Below, one piece after another: positions 31,030 through 36,293 of a stretch of DNA of 64,000 bases. A program made the position numbers and the translations under genes. Source of the DNA: Variovorax sp. V93 (GTDB lineage: Bacteria; Pseudomonadota; Gammaproteobacteria; Burkholderiales; Burkholderiaceae_C); the NCBI RefSeq assembly GCF_041154485.1, contig NZ_AP028669.1, positions 3,348,001-3,412,000 on the forward strand, written 5' to 3'. Position 1 is the stretch's first letter, and every line of letters begins with the position of its first letter. Below the pieces are notes generated by a model. The model was not told the origin of the DNA. It saw only the letters and a list, made by a program, of their open reading frames with translations, and did not search any database.

Positions 31030-32781
31030 TCAGGCCTTGCCCCGGCAGGACGCGAGCGCGTCCAGCGCGGGCTTGTAGGTGGGGTTGCTCACGTCCATCA
31101 GCCCCAGCACCGTGTGGTAAAGGTTGTCGTGCGTGAGCGGCGTGTCGAGCCCCGCCTCCATGCACGCGCGCGACAGCTTGCGGCGCTCGCTCATGCCGGC
31201 ACCGAACCAGGTGACCATCGGCACGTGCTTCTGCGCCTCGGGTGCGAAGCTGTAGGGCACGCCATGCAGGAACAGGCCGTATTCGCCGAGCGACTCGCCA
31301 TGGTCGCTCAGGTAGAGCAAGGCCGGGTCGTACTGGCTCGACTGCGCCTTGAGCCAGTCGATGGTCTGGCCCAGGAAATGGTCGGTCTGCGCGATCGAGT
31401 TGTCGTAGACGTTCTGCAGCTCCGCGTGGCCGCACTCGGCCAGCGCATTGGTCTTGCACTCGGGCAGGTAGCGCTTGACCTCCGGCGCCGAGCGCTTGTA
31501 GTAGGCCGGCCCGTGGCTGCCCATCTGGTGCATGACCAGCACCACGCCCTTCGCGCGGCGCTCGGCGGGCAGCGCGGCAATGCGCGCGTCCAGGCCTTTG
31601 AGCATGACGTCGTCCAGGCATTCCTCGCCGTCGCACAGCGCGCTCTTCTGCGCGGGCGAGAGGCTGTCGAAAGCCGAGGCATTGGGAATGCGCGTGCACA
31701 CGTCCTTGCAGCCGGCCTGGTTGTCCAGCCACAGCACCGCCAGTCCGGCCGCCTGCAGCACGTCGACCAGGTTCTCGTAGTCGTCGCTGCGCGACTCGTA
31801 GCCCTGCTTGCCAAGCGGCGAGAACATGCACGGCACCGAGGCGAGCGTGTTGGTGCCGCACGAATGCACGTCGCGATAGCTCAGCACGCCGCGCGCCGCC
31901 AGCTCGGGCGTGGTGTTGCGTGCATAGCCGTTGAGGCCGAAGTGGTCGGCCCGCGCCGTCTCGCCCACCACCAGCACGAACATCGGCGGCCGCGCCTGGC
32001 CCGCGTAGCTCGCGCCCAGCGCCGTTCCGGCCGTGATGGGAATCAGCTTGCGGCTGCGCTTGAACATCGGCCTGATGACCACCGAGCCGGCCGAGTAGAG
32101 GCTCGCGACCGGGTTCATCATGTAGCGCAGGTGGACGTTGTTGCGCATCAGCGGCGCGAGCTGCCGGTTCATCGAGACCGCAGCCACCAGCGCCACGGCC
32201 ACCGCAAGCAGCAGCAGCGCCGCGTTGCGCCAGAGCTTGGAGACGAAGCGCATCGGCACGATGCGCGCGCGCCAGAGCGCCAGCGCCGGCAGCAGCGCCA
32301 CCAGCAGCACGTGGTAGGCCATGCGCCAGCTCATGAGGTCGCGCGCCTCGTTCGGGTCGGTCTGCAGCACGTTGGCGATCATGGTCGGGTCCATCACCAC
32401 GCGGTACTCGAGCATGTAGTGCTGCACGAACGCGGCCAGCAGCACCACCGCGAACCACAAGGGCTTCATCCAGCGCGACCAGGCCGTGAAGGACAGCAGC
32501 GCGACCGTGGCGCACACCATGAGCACCGCCATGGCGGCGCTCGTGGGCAGGTAGGTGCTGGGTGCGCCGCCGATGCGCGCCAGTTCGTTCCAGAGCGGCC
32601 AGTTGGCGGCCACGGCAAGGTAGATGGCGAGCCAGACGACCACGCTCTGCGCCGAGCGTGGCCGCGCCAGCCAGAGGTCGATGTGCGCCCAGAGCGCACG
32701 TGCGGGCGCCAGGAAGGAAGCGCCGGACGCCGGCACGCCCACGTCCCGCCCCGGCGCGGGCTCGATTCTTGAAAATGACAT
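31030..32781 (-). CDS. eptA: Phosphoethanolamine transferase, EptA/PmrC/MCR family
   Basis: A 583-residue inner-membrane enzyme that transfers phosphoethanolamine from phosphatidylethanolamine to lipid A or another envelope glycan. Five hydrophobic helices lie within residues ~45-205, followed by a periplasmic sulfatase-fold domain. Catalytic features: metal Glu in VGETARADHFG (273-280), nucleophile T312 in SCGTNTLASVPCMFS, and SDHGESLGE. Paired cysteines in the C-terminal domain match the MCR/EptA disulfides. It has its own upstream region with four CTGAA half-sites, shared with the divergent two-component system. Relatives confer polymyxin resistance; target lipid here is inferred. Confidence 0.93.
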   Translation of the reverse strand: MSFSRIEPAPGRDVGVPASGASFLAPARALWAHIDLWLARPRSAQSVVVWLAIYLAVAANWPLWNELARIGGAPSTYLPTSAAMAVLMVCATVALLSFTAWSRWMKPLWFAVVLLAAFVQHYMLEYRVVMDPTMIANVLQTDPNEARDLMSWRMAYHVLLVALLPALALWRARIVPMRFVSKLWRNAALLLLAVAVALVAAVSMNRQLAPLMRNNVHLRYMMNPVASLYSAGSVVIRPMFKRSRKLIPITAGTALGASYAGQARPPMFVLVVGETARADHFGLNGYARNTTPELAARGVLSYRDVHSCGTNTLASVPCMFSPLGKQGYESRSDDYENLVDVLQAAGLAVLWLDNQAGCKDVCTRIPNASAFDSLSPAQKSALCDGEECLDDVMLKGLDARIAALPAERRAKGVVLVMHQMGSHGPAYYKRSAPEVKRYLPECKTNALAECGHAELQNVYDNSIAQTDHFLGQTIDWLKAQSSQYDPALLYLSDHGESLGEYGLFLHGVPYSFAPEAQKHVPMVTWFGAGMSERRKLSRACMEAGLDTPLTHDNLYHTVLGLMDVSNPTYKPALDALASCRGKA

Positions 32782-32802
32782 CTACCGACTGTAAGAAGCG
32801 CA

Positions 32803-32843
32803 ACTGAAGCCAGCCTGAATTGCGCGTTCAGCCGGCGTTCAGG
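32803..32843. promoter_or_regulatory. CTGAA half-sites upstream of eptA
   Basis: Two CTGAA motifs on the plus strand at 32804-32808 and 32815-32819, exactly 11 bp apart, and two on the minus strand (read as TTCAG at 32827-32831 and 32838-32842), again 11 bp apart. They fill the 57-bp gap between the PAP2 gene and eptA. The 11-bp hexamer-N5-hexamer pattern is how OmpR/PmrA-type response regulators contact DNA. Confidence 0.65.
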
Positions 32844-33408
32844 TTCGCGCCCGCCTCGCCCTCAAGCGGGGCCGCATGAAGGCCCTGAGCGCCAGGTTGA
32901 GCGGCCGGCTCAGGCCGCGCTCCACCACGATCGACATCAGGGCGGCGAGCATCGCCCCCACGACCACGTCGAGCGGAAAGTGCAGTCCGAGGAACACGCG
33001 GCTCCACCCGACCACCGCGGCCACCGCCAGCGCGGCCAGCATGGGCGCGCGCCACGGCAGGCACCACAGCGAAAACGCCGCAGCGAAGGTGCAGGCGGCA
33101 TGCAGGCTCGGAAAGCCCGGCCGCGCGCCCTGCGGCGCCCACTGGATTCCCAGGCCGTAGAAGGCGGGCCGCTGGAACGGCATGGCCGAGCGGAACACGT
33201 TCACGAAGAGCCAGACCGCCAGCACGCTGACCAGCGCGGTGAAGCAGGCATAGCGCAGGCGGCGGTCGAGCACCGCCGCGCCGATGATCGCGGTGGCCAG
33301 CAAGGCCGGCAGCACGTCGGAGGCAAAGCGCGCGAAATGGATGCTCCACGCCGGTGCCGCGGCACTGGCGTTGATCAGCGCGAACAGGGCGGCATCAAGG
33401 GCCTGCAT
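32839..33408 (-). CDS. PAP2-family phosphatase, undecaprenyl-diphosphatase-like
   Basis: A 189-residue membrane PAP2 protein with about five helices. Motif C1 is present as RSAMPFQRP (Arg replacing the usual first Lys), C2 as GFPSLHAACTFA and C3 as SRVFLGLHFPLDVVVGA, so the catalytic His residues are intact. It resembles BcrC/YbjG or lipid phosphatases. Start ATG 33406-33408 overlaps the end of the other PAP2 gene by 14 bp and has a poor Shine-Dalgarno, so it is probably translated by coupling. Lipid target (undecaprenyl-PP, lipid A phosphate or phosphatidylglycerol phosphate) is open. Confidence 0.85.
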   Translation of the reverse strand: MQALDAALFALINASAAAPAWSIHFARFASDVLPALLATAIIGAAVLDRRLRYACFTALVSVLAVWLFVNVFRSAMPFQRPAFYGLGIQWAPQGARPGFPSLHAACTFAAAFSLWCLPWRAPMLAALAVAAVVGWSRVFLGLHFPLDVVVGAMLAALMSIVVERGLSRPLNLALRAFMRPRLRARRART

Positions 33409-34120
33409 GCAGCACAGCAGGTTCGGCTGCGGCCAACCGCAAAGCGCGAGGTGCGGCGGCCAGGTCGATGGCAAAGCCCACCACCCAGCAGATCCAGGCG
33501 GTCCAGAGCGTGTGGCTCATGTAGTGGGCCCCCCGCAGTTGCTGCGACAGGCCGAGCAGCAGCCCCGCGGCCAGCGACGCGCAGAGCCAGAGGATGGCCA
33601 CGCGCGGCGATACCCGGCGCAGCACGAAATAGCCGCCCACATAGGCGAAGGCCGCTGAAGCGTGGCCCGCCGGGAAGCACCCGCCCGCGCCGCCGTCATA
33701 GACCTTCCATGCCCAGTGCGACACATGGCTGGCCGCGCCGCCGAATTCCTTCAGGTCCCAGGGGCAGCTCGTGTGGCTCGCATGCTTGAGCAGGCTGATG
33801 GCCACAACCGAGAGCAGCACGGTGAATGCCAGCTGCGCCCGGGCGCGAACCGGCAGCTGCCGCAGGACGCCGAGCGGCCAGCGGATGGCGGCGAACAGCG
33901 CGATCACGAACAGCCAGCTCAGGTCCTTCGCGCCCTCGTGCATCACATGCACCAGGAAGGCGTTGTCGCGCCACGGAAAGCCCACGGGGGTGCCCGCCAG
34001 GCGGGCCAGCGCGAGATCGCCTCCGGTGGCGTCCCACGCCAGCAGCAGGACCAATGCAAGGAAGGTCAGTGCTCCCAGGCGGAGATTCGAGGGATTTGGA
34101 TGATTGGGGACACGCGTCAT
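33395..34120 (-). CDS. PAP2-family membrane phosphatase (241 aa)
   Basis: A 241-residue integral membrane PAP2 protein with about six helices. The phosphatase motifs are variant: C1 KHASHTSCPWDL (Cys-Pro in place of Arg-Pro), C2 CFPAGHASAAFA, and C3 RGAHYMSHTLWT. This CPWDL subgroup is often found next to phosphoethanolamine transferases. It heads the PAP2-PAP2-eptA gene set and is divergent from a two-component system; its gene start is 50 bp from tandem CTGAA repeats that may recruit the response regulator. Confidence 0.87.
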   Translation of the reverse strand: MTRVPNHPNPSNLRLGALTFLALVLLLAWDATGGDLALARLAGTPVGFPWRDNAFLVHVMHEGAKDLSWLFVIALFAAIRWPLGVLRQLPVRARAQLAFTVLLSVVAISLLKHASHTSCPWDLKEFGGAASHVSHWAWKVYDGGAGGCFPAGHASAAFAYVGGYFVLRRVSPRVAILWLCASLAAGLLLGLSQQLRGAHYMSHTLWTAWICWVVGFAIDLAAAPRALRLAAAEPAVLHAGP

Positions 34121-34171
34121 GAGAACAGAGAAACCAGCAAGCCTGAAAACCCCCAGAGCCTACGTTCGTGG

Positions 34172-34209
34172 CCTGAACCGAGCCTGAAGCGGCCCTGAAC
34201 GGAAACTGA
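34172..34209. promoter_or_regulatory. Tandem 11-bp CTGAA iterons between PAP2 operon and two-component genes
   Basis: CCTGAA occurs at 34172, 34183 and 34194, each exactly 11 bp after the last, and a fourth CTGA follows in phase at 34206. An isolated extra copy lies at 34142. They sit in the 149-bp divergent gap between the PAP2 gene and the response regulator. One-turn spacing of direct hexamers is the hallmark of OmpR/PhoB-type binding arrays. Confidence 0.7.
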
Positions 34210-34269
34210 CGCCGCCCGGCCCCGCGACAGTCGGCGCTAGACTGCGTTTTTTTTGAAAGACCCCATCGC

Positions 34270-34944
34270 GTGCGCATATTGCTCGTCGAAGATGACAGTG
34301 CGTTGGCAGACGCCGTCTGCAGCTACCTGGTTGCGAAGGCATTCGTGGTCGACGTGGCGTCCAGCCTCGCCGAGGCACGCGGTGCCCTGCTCTCGGTGCA
34401 GTACGCCGCCGTGCTGCTCGACCTGCACCTGGGCGACGGCGACGGCCTGTCGCTGCTGCCCCAGGTGCGCGCGCTGCGCGAGCCGCCCATCGTCATCGTG
34501 CTGACGGCGCGCGACCAGGTCACCGACCGCATCCGCGGGCTCGACGCCGGCGCCGACGACTACCTCATCAAGCCCTACGACCCGGCCGAACTGCTGGCCC
34601 GGCTGCGCGCGGTGGAGCGGCGGCGCAGCGCCGGCAGCTCGCCAGTGCTGCGCCTGGGAACACTGGAGATCGACCTGGCGCAGGACAGGGTCCGCAAGGA
34701 CGGCAACCCGGTCGTCCTCACGCAGAAGGAATGGGCCCTGCTGCGCGTGATGGCCACACGGCCCGAGCGCATCCACACGCGCGAGAACCTGGCCGACGCG
34801 CTCTACGGCTTCGGCGACGAGGCCGACAGCAACACGCTCGAAGTGTTCATCAGCCGCCTGCGGCGCAAGCTGGGCAAGAACCACATCCAGACGCTGCGCG
34901 GCCTGGGCTACCGGCTGTCGACCTCGTCGGGCGACGACGAATGA
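34270..34944 (+). CDS. OmpR/PmrA-type response regulator
   Basis: A 224-residue response regulator beginning with GTG. The receiver domain (1-~115) has acidic E7-D8-D9, phosphoacceptor D51 in LDLHLGDGDG, T79 and K101 (DYLIKPY). The C-terminal winged helix (about 130-222, with VVLTQKEWALLRVMATR and FISRLRRKLG) is of the OmpR/PhoB class, close to PmrA/QseB. It overlaps the kinase gene by 4 bp and faces an envelope-modification operon across CTGAA iterons; together these suggest control of lipid A modification, as with PmrAB elsewhere. The signal is unknown. Confidence 0.93.
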   Translation: MRILLVEDDSALADAVCSYLVAKAFVVDVASSLAEARGALLSVQYAAVLLDLHLGDGDGLSLLPQVRALREPPIVIVLTARDQVTDRIRGLDAGADDYLIKPYDPAELLARLRAVERRRSAGSSPVLRLGTLEIDLAQDRVRKDGNPVVLTQKEWALLRVMATRPERIHTRENLADALYGFGDEADSNTLEVFISRLRRKLGKNHIQTLRGLGYRLSTSSGDDE

Positions 34945-36293
34945 CCGCGGCACGCCCGAAGGACGACCGCGACACGCTGGCCGGCCGCCTGACGCGCACA
35001 CTGATCCTCTGGGTCGGCGGCGTGTGGATGCTCTGCGTGCTGGCCGTGGTCTGGTACGTGGACCGCGAGATCAACCACAACTTCGACAACGAACTGGTCG
35101 AGGTCTCGCACCGCATGTTCGACATGGCGCTGCAAGAGCTCGGCAAGCTGCAGCATTCGGGCGCCACGCCGGACGCGCCGATGATCGCGCCCAAGCAATT
35201 GTTCTCGGAAGACGCTGTGATGTACCAGGTGGTGGACATCCACGAGCACGTGCTGCTGCGCTCGGCCGAGGCGCCCACCGATGCCTTCGACGTGCCGCTG
35301 GCCGCGGGCTTCGCCAACAACCAGACCTGGCGCATCTATACGGTGCGGCATCCCACGCTGGGCCTTTACTTCCAGGTGGCCGATCCGCTTGACGAGCGGC
35401 GCTCGGCGCTGAACCGCACGCTGTTCGGGCTGATCATTCCGCTGGGTGCCGTGCTGCCGCTGCTGGCGCTGGTGCTGCGCAGGGTGGCCCGCAACGAGCT
35501 GCGCGTGCTGCAGCAGCTCGCAGGCGAGATCGAGAAGCGCAGCGGCTCCGACCTGCGCCCCATCACGCTGCCCGGCCTGCCGTACGAACTGCGCGCGGTC
35601 GGCGACCACGTCAACAGCCTGCTGGAACGCCTGTCGCACTCGCTGGACGTCGAGCGCGCGCTGGCCGCCAACGCGGCGCACGAGTTGCGAACACCGCTGG
35701 CCGCCGCACGGCTGCGGCTGCAGACCGCGCTCGAGCACGACCTGCAGCGCAACGACGTGCAGGCGGCGCTCGATGCGCTGCAGATGCTCAGCCACCGCAC
35801 CGAGAAGCTGCTGCAGCTCTCGCGCGCGGAATCGGCCGCCTCGCTCGCTCGCGCACGGGTCGACCTGGTGCAGCTGGCCGGTGCCGTGGCGCAGGACTTC
35901 TGGAACGACCCGCAGATCAGCGAGCGGCTCGCGCTCAAGGTGCCCGACGACGCCGCGCCGGTTGCCTCGGGCGACGTCGACGCGCTGGCGATCGCGCTGC
36001 GCAACCTGGTGGAAAACGCGCTGCGCTACGGCGGCAGCGGCCGCGTGGTGATCGAGGTGATGGCGCCCTGCACGCTCGCGGTGCGCGACTTCGGCGCGGG
36101 CGTCAGCGCCGCGCAGCTCGCCACGCTGCAGCAGCGCCATGTACGCCACAGCTCCGATCGCGCGGGCTACGGACTGGGGCTGTCGATCGTGGGCACGATC
36201 GTCGAGAAGCACGGCGCCAGGCTCGAACTGGCATCGCCCCCGCCCGGCGCCGCCCACGGCTTCGAGGCGCGCATCGTGCTGCGGCCGGCCTAG
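34941..36293 (+). CDS. Sensor histidine kinase, PmrB/QseC-like
   Basis: A 450-residue membrane kinase paired with the preceding response regulator (ATGA overlap). Two transmembrane helices (about 19-38 and 152-172) bracket a ~110-residue periplasmic sensor region; a short HAMP-like linker precedes the dimerisation helix with H247 in NAAHELRTPLAAARL. The ATPase domain shows N-box NLVENALRYGG, the DFGAGVS G1 box and GYGLGLSIV. Context points to sensing of an envelope stress that leads to phosphoethanolamine addition. Confidence 0.93.
   Translation: MTAARPKDDRDTLAGRLTRTLILWVGGVWMLCVLAVVWYVDREINHNFDNELVEVSHRMFDMALQELGKLQHSGATPDAPMIAPKQLFSEDAVMYQVVDIHEHVLLRSAEAPTDAFDVPLAAGFANNQTWRIYTVRHPTLGLYFQVADPLDERRSALNRTLFGLIIPLGAVLPLLALVLRRVARNELRVLQQLAGEIEKRSGSDLRPITLPGLPYELRAVGDHVNSLLERLSHSLDVERALAANAAHELRTPLAAARLRLQTALEHDLQRNDVQAALDALQMLSHRTEKLLQLSRAESAASLARARVDLVQLAGAVAQDFWNDPQISERLALKVPDDAAPVASGDVDALAIALRNLVENALRYGGSGRVVIEVMAPCTLAVRDFGAGVSAAQLATLQQRHVRHSSDRAGYGLGLSIVGTIVEKHGARLELASPPPGAAHGFEARIVLRPA

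Follow-up and report, generated by a model that had tools for sequence, protein, structure and literature searches.

Phased TTCAG repeats as probable regulator-binding sites at an eptA/PAP2/two-component locus of Variovorax, with a predicted leaderless eptA mRNA

A lipid A modification locus with phased repeats

The 64,000-nucleotide stretch of DNA analyzed here (the window), whose nearest named relatives are Variovorax, belongs to a genome of 6.74 Mb. In the locus studied, three minus-strand genes, eptA, PAP2-b and PAP2-a in order of rising coordinate, precede a divergent response regulator and histidine kinase (Table 1). EptA-type lipid A modification is a basis of tolerance to polymyxins and other cationic peptides. 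The window eptA scores 512.3 bits against its NCBIfam model, above the cut-off of 500, while PAP2-a, at 61.1 bits, falls below the cut-off of 275 for the lipid A phosphatase model that matches it best. A PAP2/lpxE-type gene diverges from the regulator in the window and in 74 of the 79 loci with eptA. PAP2-b, whose start codon is a choice made in this analysis, lies between eptA and PAP2-a in 28 of the 79. The kinase has an E-L-x-E stretch directly after its first membrane helix, both glutamates being present in at least 95% of 80 aligned rows; this is perhaps a metal-binding ExxE like that described for ColS in the available text of PMC8306577.

Table 1. Genes, repeats and candidate promoter elements of the locus (window coordinates)
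Feature	Positions	Strand	Remarks
eptA, lipid A phosphoethanolamine transferase	31030..32781	-	ATG 32779-32781; Pfam EptA_B_N + Sulfatase; NCBIfam NF028537
Predicted -10 of eptA, TACAGT	32788..32793	-	6 nt before ATG; fixed spacing
Proximal pair TTCAG-N6-TTCAG (CTGAA-N6-CTGAA on +)	32804..32819	-	upstream of eptA
Inverted second pair TTCAG-N6-TTCAG	32827..32842	+	23 bp from first pair
PAP2-b, membrane phosphatase related to undecaprenyl-diphosphate phosphatases	32839..33408	-	Pfam PAP2; NCBIfam below cut-offs
PAP2-a, PAP2 family	33395..34120	-	Pfam PAP2; best NCBIfam model lipid A phosphatase NF028538
Predicted -10 of PAP2-a, TAGGCT	34157..34162	-	fixed spacing
Array of four half-sites in 11-bp register (CTGAA 34173, 34184, 34195, CTGAC 34206 on +)	34173..34210	-	
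TAGACT, probable -10 of regulator operon	34238..34243	+	distance to repeats varies among relatives
Response regulator, REC + winged-helix	34270..34944	+	PmrA-like but under PmrA cut-off (Pfam, NCBIfam, tree)
Histidine kinase, 2CSK_N + HisKA + HATPase_c	34941..36293	+	Pfam, NCBIfam

The first-pass annotation had described CTGAA words in 11-bp phase in the gap before eptA and in the divergent gap, and the words lie where it placed them, starting on the plus strand at 32804, 32815, 34173, 34184 and 34195; CTGAC completes the divergent array, and the reversed form, TTCAG, starts at 32827 and 32838. The length given for the first gap, 57 bp, is likewise correct (between the eptA start at 32781 and the PAP2-b stop at 32839), as is the phasing: steps inside each pair or array are 11 bp, and that from 32815 to 32827 is 12 bp. 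An extra CTGAA at 34143 is off register, 30 bp from 34173. The outermost half-site of the eptA-gap repeats overlaps the stop codon of PAP2-b.

CTGAA is a common word, and repeats of it might reflect chance or composition; we give this reading practically no weight. The window holds six pairs with at most one mismatch against 1.67 expected, a count of six being reached in 1 of 100 shuffles. This locus has 4 of the 10 exact CTGAA-N6-CTGAA pairs in the whole genome, and the reversed-pattern control finds one. Of the other six, four lie inside open reading frames of at least 120 codons and two outside, and none has a TANNNT at the spacing found at eptA and PAP2-a. Upstream of orthologous regulators, a stricter form of the repeat occurs in 67 of 86 dissimilar regions; 200 dinucleotide shuffles averaged 0.05 such regions and never gave more than 1. 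Together, the window and upstream-region shuffles rule out chance repeats.

The full upstream set comprised 110 regions, 80 from named genomes (L041-L120, the best 80 of 383) and 30 (L011-L040) drawn from a sample of 200 family genomes, with some genomes in both sets and many loci from close relatives. [AC]TGAA-N6-CTGAA is present in 84 of these and TGAA-N7-TGAA in 99; among the 11 without the latter, L105 is no true upstream region, because its contig begins at the gene. Removal of L105 and of similar sequences left the 86 regions counted above. Distances between CTGAA pairs peak at 11 bp (34 times), followed by 10 bp (9 times), with no more than five at any other distance up to 45. Lack of conservation in orthologous loci, which the first-pass annotation had named as fatal to its proposal, is thus excluded: the repeats are strongly kept.

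Promoter geometry and the predicted start of eptA

On the strand that would be activated, eptA and PAP2-a share one element, in which TTCAG-N6-TTCAG is separated by exactly 10 bp from a -10-like hexamer downstream; the pair at PAP2-a is 34173/34184. Across eptA loci, 54 of 73 pairs have TANNNT at spacer 10, and no other spacer between 3 and 29 shows it; the PAP2-a figures are 69 of 77 pairs at spacer 10 and five more at 21, one repeat further. The four-half-site pattern recurs in 69 of 79 eptA gaps and is missing in 10. Where the first pair is present, the inverted second pair follows in the same register in 68 of 72 loci, and its 23-bp offset is seen again in six more distant loci with two-way boxes. 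The element is nearly unique in this genome: a whole-genome scan for TTCA-N7-TTCA-N11-TANNNT gives two exact matches, both these promoters, and one in the control. Allowing one mismatch adds six (eight in total) against 12 in the control, so no further target is claimed in this genome, none rising above control beyond the two local promoters.

Given these fixed spacings and the conservation beside the regulator, it is very probable that the adjacent OmpR-type response regulator binds the repeats, and quite probable that they drive eptA and PAP2-a and that eptA is leaderless. On a signal presumably relayed by the neighboring kinase, phosphorylated dimers would bind TTCAG-N6-TTCAG head to tail and bring RNA polymerase to the -10 hexamer exactly 10 bp on. 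Such recruitment would activate eptA and, from the divergent gap, PAP2-a, giving a small dedicated lipid A remodelling regulon; the opposite-orientation pair at eptA, 23 bp off, probably holds a second dimer. In PhoB-type activation (the pho box), a tandem repeat near the -10 replaces the -35. The arrangement proposed here is similar, with a tandem repeat close upstream of the -10 (PhoB-type activation is cited in the available text of PMC4660055), but has another half-site and an opposite-orientation second pair at eptA.

The first-pass annotation had the adjacent regulator controlling both phosphoethanolamine transfer and its own operon. The first part stands, with the neighboring PAP2 gene added: co-conservation and the fixed -10 distance suggest that the regulator probably activates eptA and PAP2-a. 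The second part fared poorly. The TA[GC]ACT element of the regulator operon lies anywhere from 5 to 83 bp from the repeats across loci; set against the fixed spacer of 10, this indicates that the conserved design aims at eptA and PAP2-a, not at the regulator. The kept orientation of the repeats also faces PAP2-a, and Pseudomonas putida ColR, with the same kind of gap, does not regulate itself according to the available text of PMC2689224. Control of the regulator's own operon is accordingly doubtful in this lineage. That the divergent array also regulates that operon, either activating it or, where sites crowd TAGACT, repressing it, is nevertheless a tentative possibility, if a somewhat unlikely one, with four half-sites between PAP2-a and the regulator. 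In an eptA-less sister subgroup (L255, L256, L257, L259, L260, L261, L262, L266 and others), several boxes face the regulator, so self-control may exist there.

The eptA gene shows a further regularity, and this fixed link between box and start codon is the new part of the finding. An in-frame ATG stands exactly 22 nt past the proximal half-site in 69 of 72 loci (70 if any pair is allowed), whereas the next commonest in-frame start occurs six times; some of these loci are from close relatives, but hexamer and spacer come in 54 different combinations. A hexamer at -12 to -7 would put the A of the eptA ATG on +1, and this -10-to-ATG spacing leads us to predict that the transcript starts at its ATG and that the mRNA is leaderless. 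In a second copy of the locus, on plasmid 2 of Variovorax sp. RA8, the annotated eptA start coincides with the predicted ATG. Leaders of PAP2-a vary in length.

The eptA mRNA could instead have an ordinary leader, through a promoter further upstream or a start codon further on, the fixed ATG distance then having some other cause. Several observations lean that way: the hexamer is other than TANNNT at 18 of the 72 eptA sites, and in a second, less related set (L013-L040 and L255-L290, sharing genomes with the first set), offset 22 is found in 9 of 23 and offsets 22 to 24 in 18 of 23, others occurring as well. At a distal eptA site (L137), moreover, the ATG at +1 opens just 38 codons, and EptA begins 110 nt downstream. 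Against this stand the single exact ATG position in the main set and the annotated plasmid start, and we regard an ordinary leader as unlikely, though a rival of some substance.

Relation to PmrA and ColR

The regulator is a member of the OmpR/PhoB class (Response_reg 76.0 bits and Trans_reg_C 76.4 bits, both over cut-off), and among solved structures BasR/PmrA are nearest to it in sequence. Its best NCBIfam model is likewise PmrA (NF007928), at 207.9 bits under a cut-off of 330. It is not a mutual best match of Escherichia coli BasR, lying outside the six best BasR hits in this genome. The published PmrA boxes are repeats of YTTAAK or TTTAAG (available text of PMC10927774); the window half-site, TTCAG, differs from both, as the first-pass annotation had held, while the 11-bp spacing agrees. 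Relatives of the regulator (E <= 1e-68) occur in 65 family genomes out of 399; among 399 genomes of the order there are five with such relatives, all from the same family, and the sister subgroup was not found outside the family in this order-wide set.

Orthology with ColR, which the literature suggests, was considered and rejected. A Pseudomonas protein that we take to be ColR shares 36% identity with the regulator, which ranks 14 of 22 against it in this genome. In a tree of 47 rows, a single clade (100/100) unites the window regulator with its orthologs, ColR (89/81) standing apart; two rows read on the wrong strand (L188 and L191) have long branches and were kept in. Gene neighborhoods did not confirm that this Pseudomonas protein is ColR: among 30 class-sample loci, none had either a full ColR box or a PAP2-a match, and an EptA match was present at one (L189); strand was guessed there by stop counts, wrongly in five (L188, L191, L196, L215, L216), and the order of the best hit was represented by two genomes only.

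The resemblance in arrangement is nonetheless close. As far as the available texts describe them, Pseudomonas ColRS and Xanthomonas RaxRH adjoin lpxE and are linked to eptA (PMC8306577), and P. putida ColR activates the divergent PAP2 gene PP0900 through the box (T/C)(T/C)NA(C/G)NN(T/C)TTTTT(C/G)AC, again without self-regulation (PMC2689224). The window locus shares the divergent PAP2/lpxE gene, the eptA target and an 11-bp direct repeat with a TTCA core. Tested against YYNAS-NNY-TTTTT-SAC, TTCAGGCTGGCTTCAG and TTCAGGCTCGGTTCAG agree in core and step but lack the T-tract. A TTCA core in 11-bp repeats is the published ColR box type, which makes the element less novel than first supposed. The inverted second pair at eptA and the predicted leaderless eptA also set it apart, as does a regulator that is no ortholog by the tests made with the presumed ColR.

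PmrAB/BasRS of enterobacteria and Acinetobacter fall in the same broad cluster, with half-sites 11 bp apart and an eptA (pmrC) target (available text of PMC10927774 and PMC4660055); the latter describes head-to-tail binding of PmrA to tandem half-sites, one of which is at the -35 region. Here, unlike there, the half-site is TTCAG and not TTAAG, the family score is below cut-off, and eptA lies in the divergent-side operon instead of an eptA-basR-basS order. The system could still be simply ColRS or PmrAB in another genus, as its ColR-like gene arrangement and repeat and its best NCBIfam model would allow. The distance from the presumed ColR in identity, rank and tree position, the place outside E. 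coli BasR's best hits and the low PmrA score make this improbable. The available text of PMC10285318 describes eptA beside two-component systems and pap2 as generally known, and Variovorax does not occur in that text. Open-access listings yielded no description of a TTCAG box, of a leaderless eptA or of eptA control in this soil- and plant-associated family.

The recognition helix may bear on the change of half-site. In Klebsiella pneumoniae PmrA, base contacts are made by Asn188 and Asn196, against which His195 packs (available text of PMC4660055); the aligned residues of the window regulator are Asn, Arg (196) and Ser (195), and the combination Ser195-Arg196 occurs in 101 of 110 loci. Where sister proteins combine His or Tyr195 with Asn196, four of five genomes have TTAAG-N6-TTCA hybrids alongside. 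A one-residue switch from Asn196 to Arg is weakened as an explanation because proteins with Ser195 and Asn196 also have TTCAG boxes; two Ser195-Arg196 loci of one genus, in turn, have one TTAAG half-site. The association between residues 195/196 and the half-site is thus a lead, not a rule.

Sites across the genus and implications

Among 100 genus genomes, the promoter pattern is matched in 93 and the regulator is found in 95, with 190 matches in total against 28 in the control. Seven genomes lack a match, four without the regulator (G211, G248, G254, G267; three of them under 90% complete) and three with it (G238, G245, G276), while G209 has a match and no regulator found. These counts bear on whether another OmpR-family regulator of the cell, and not the adjacent one, binds the repeats. 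Repeats of 11 bp are common among OmpR-family regulators, and the family search gives 29 winged-helix matches in the genome. Box and adjacent regulator nevertheless travel together, on a plasmid as well, and four of the five genus genomes without the regulator also lack a match, which makes another binder very unlikely.

The 150 listed matches come from 73 genomes; for 118 of them the regulator is no more than 4 kb away, and 49 genomes have two such sites. The remaining 32 compare with 21 control matches in the same 73 genomes, so that distal sites as a whole are barely above chance. Twenty of the 32 were fetched, picked by eye with some favor to recurring sequences, and neighboring proteins were scanned at 17 (all but L134, L135 and L148). 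Five of these 17 boxes stand before PAP2 proteins (L132, L139, L141, L145 and L150, the last a marginal match at 27.3 bits for a cut-off of 27.2), one before EptA (L137) and one before PMT_2, an ArnT-like protein (L140). An ATG follows the hexamer by exactly 6 nt in 10 of the 20 sites, against about 0.3 expected from local ATG frequency, and by 5 to 8 nt in 12. This spacing and the lipid A-type neighbors make part of the distal sites look real. The clustering before envelope genes that the first-pass annotation proposed as a check is hence seen at the locus and, in part, at distal sites in the genus, and not as further targets in this genome.

Plasmid 2 of strain RA8 (NZ_LR594663.1; L291 and L292), with its own eptA, PAP2 and regulator genes, has four boxes in the 20 kb around them. 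Two precede eptA and the divergent PAP2 gene. The third stands before a glycosyltransferase-39 gene heading an arn-type operon, with the hexamer CAACGT and not TANNNT; the fourth is upstream of an annotated 100-aa PAP2 gene, the annotated start lying about 340 nt further. The gene table of this plasmid, which is incomplete, lists no kinase beside the regulator.

In its widest form, the proposal is of a family-restricted two-component system that drives lipid A remodelling genes through a rigid TTCAG-N6-TTCAG-N10-[-10]-N6-ATG, with the main and several distal targets leaderless, and whose DNA target has shifted from PmrA-like TTAAG to ColR-like TTCAG without ColR orthology; we are evenly divided on whether all of this is correct. 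If it were, an envelope-stress response would be coupled to the distinctive way in which leaderless mRNAs are translated. Should the leaderless prediction in particular hold, the chief message of a stress regulon would bypass Shine-Dalgarno initiation, which would be surprising in a proteobacterium. The locus offers a complete, testable promoter grammar and, among its relatives, a natural series of half-sites (TTAAG, hybrid and TTCAG) alongside recognition-helix changes.

Two minor observations concern the distal sites. At L134, L136, L138 and L145, boxes precede proteins of about 150 aa that look similar by eye, with an ATG 6 nt past the hexamer; those of L136 and L138 have no Pfam match. At L139 and L141, an ATG 7 nt past the hexamer opens 12 and 11 codons, respectively, before the PAP2 gene, perhaps a short leader peptide.
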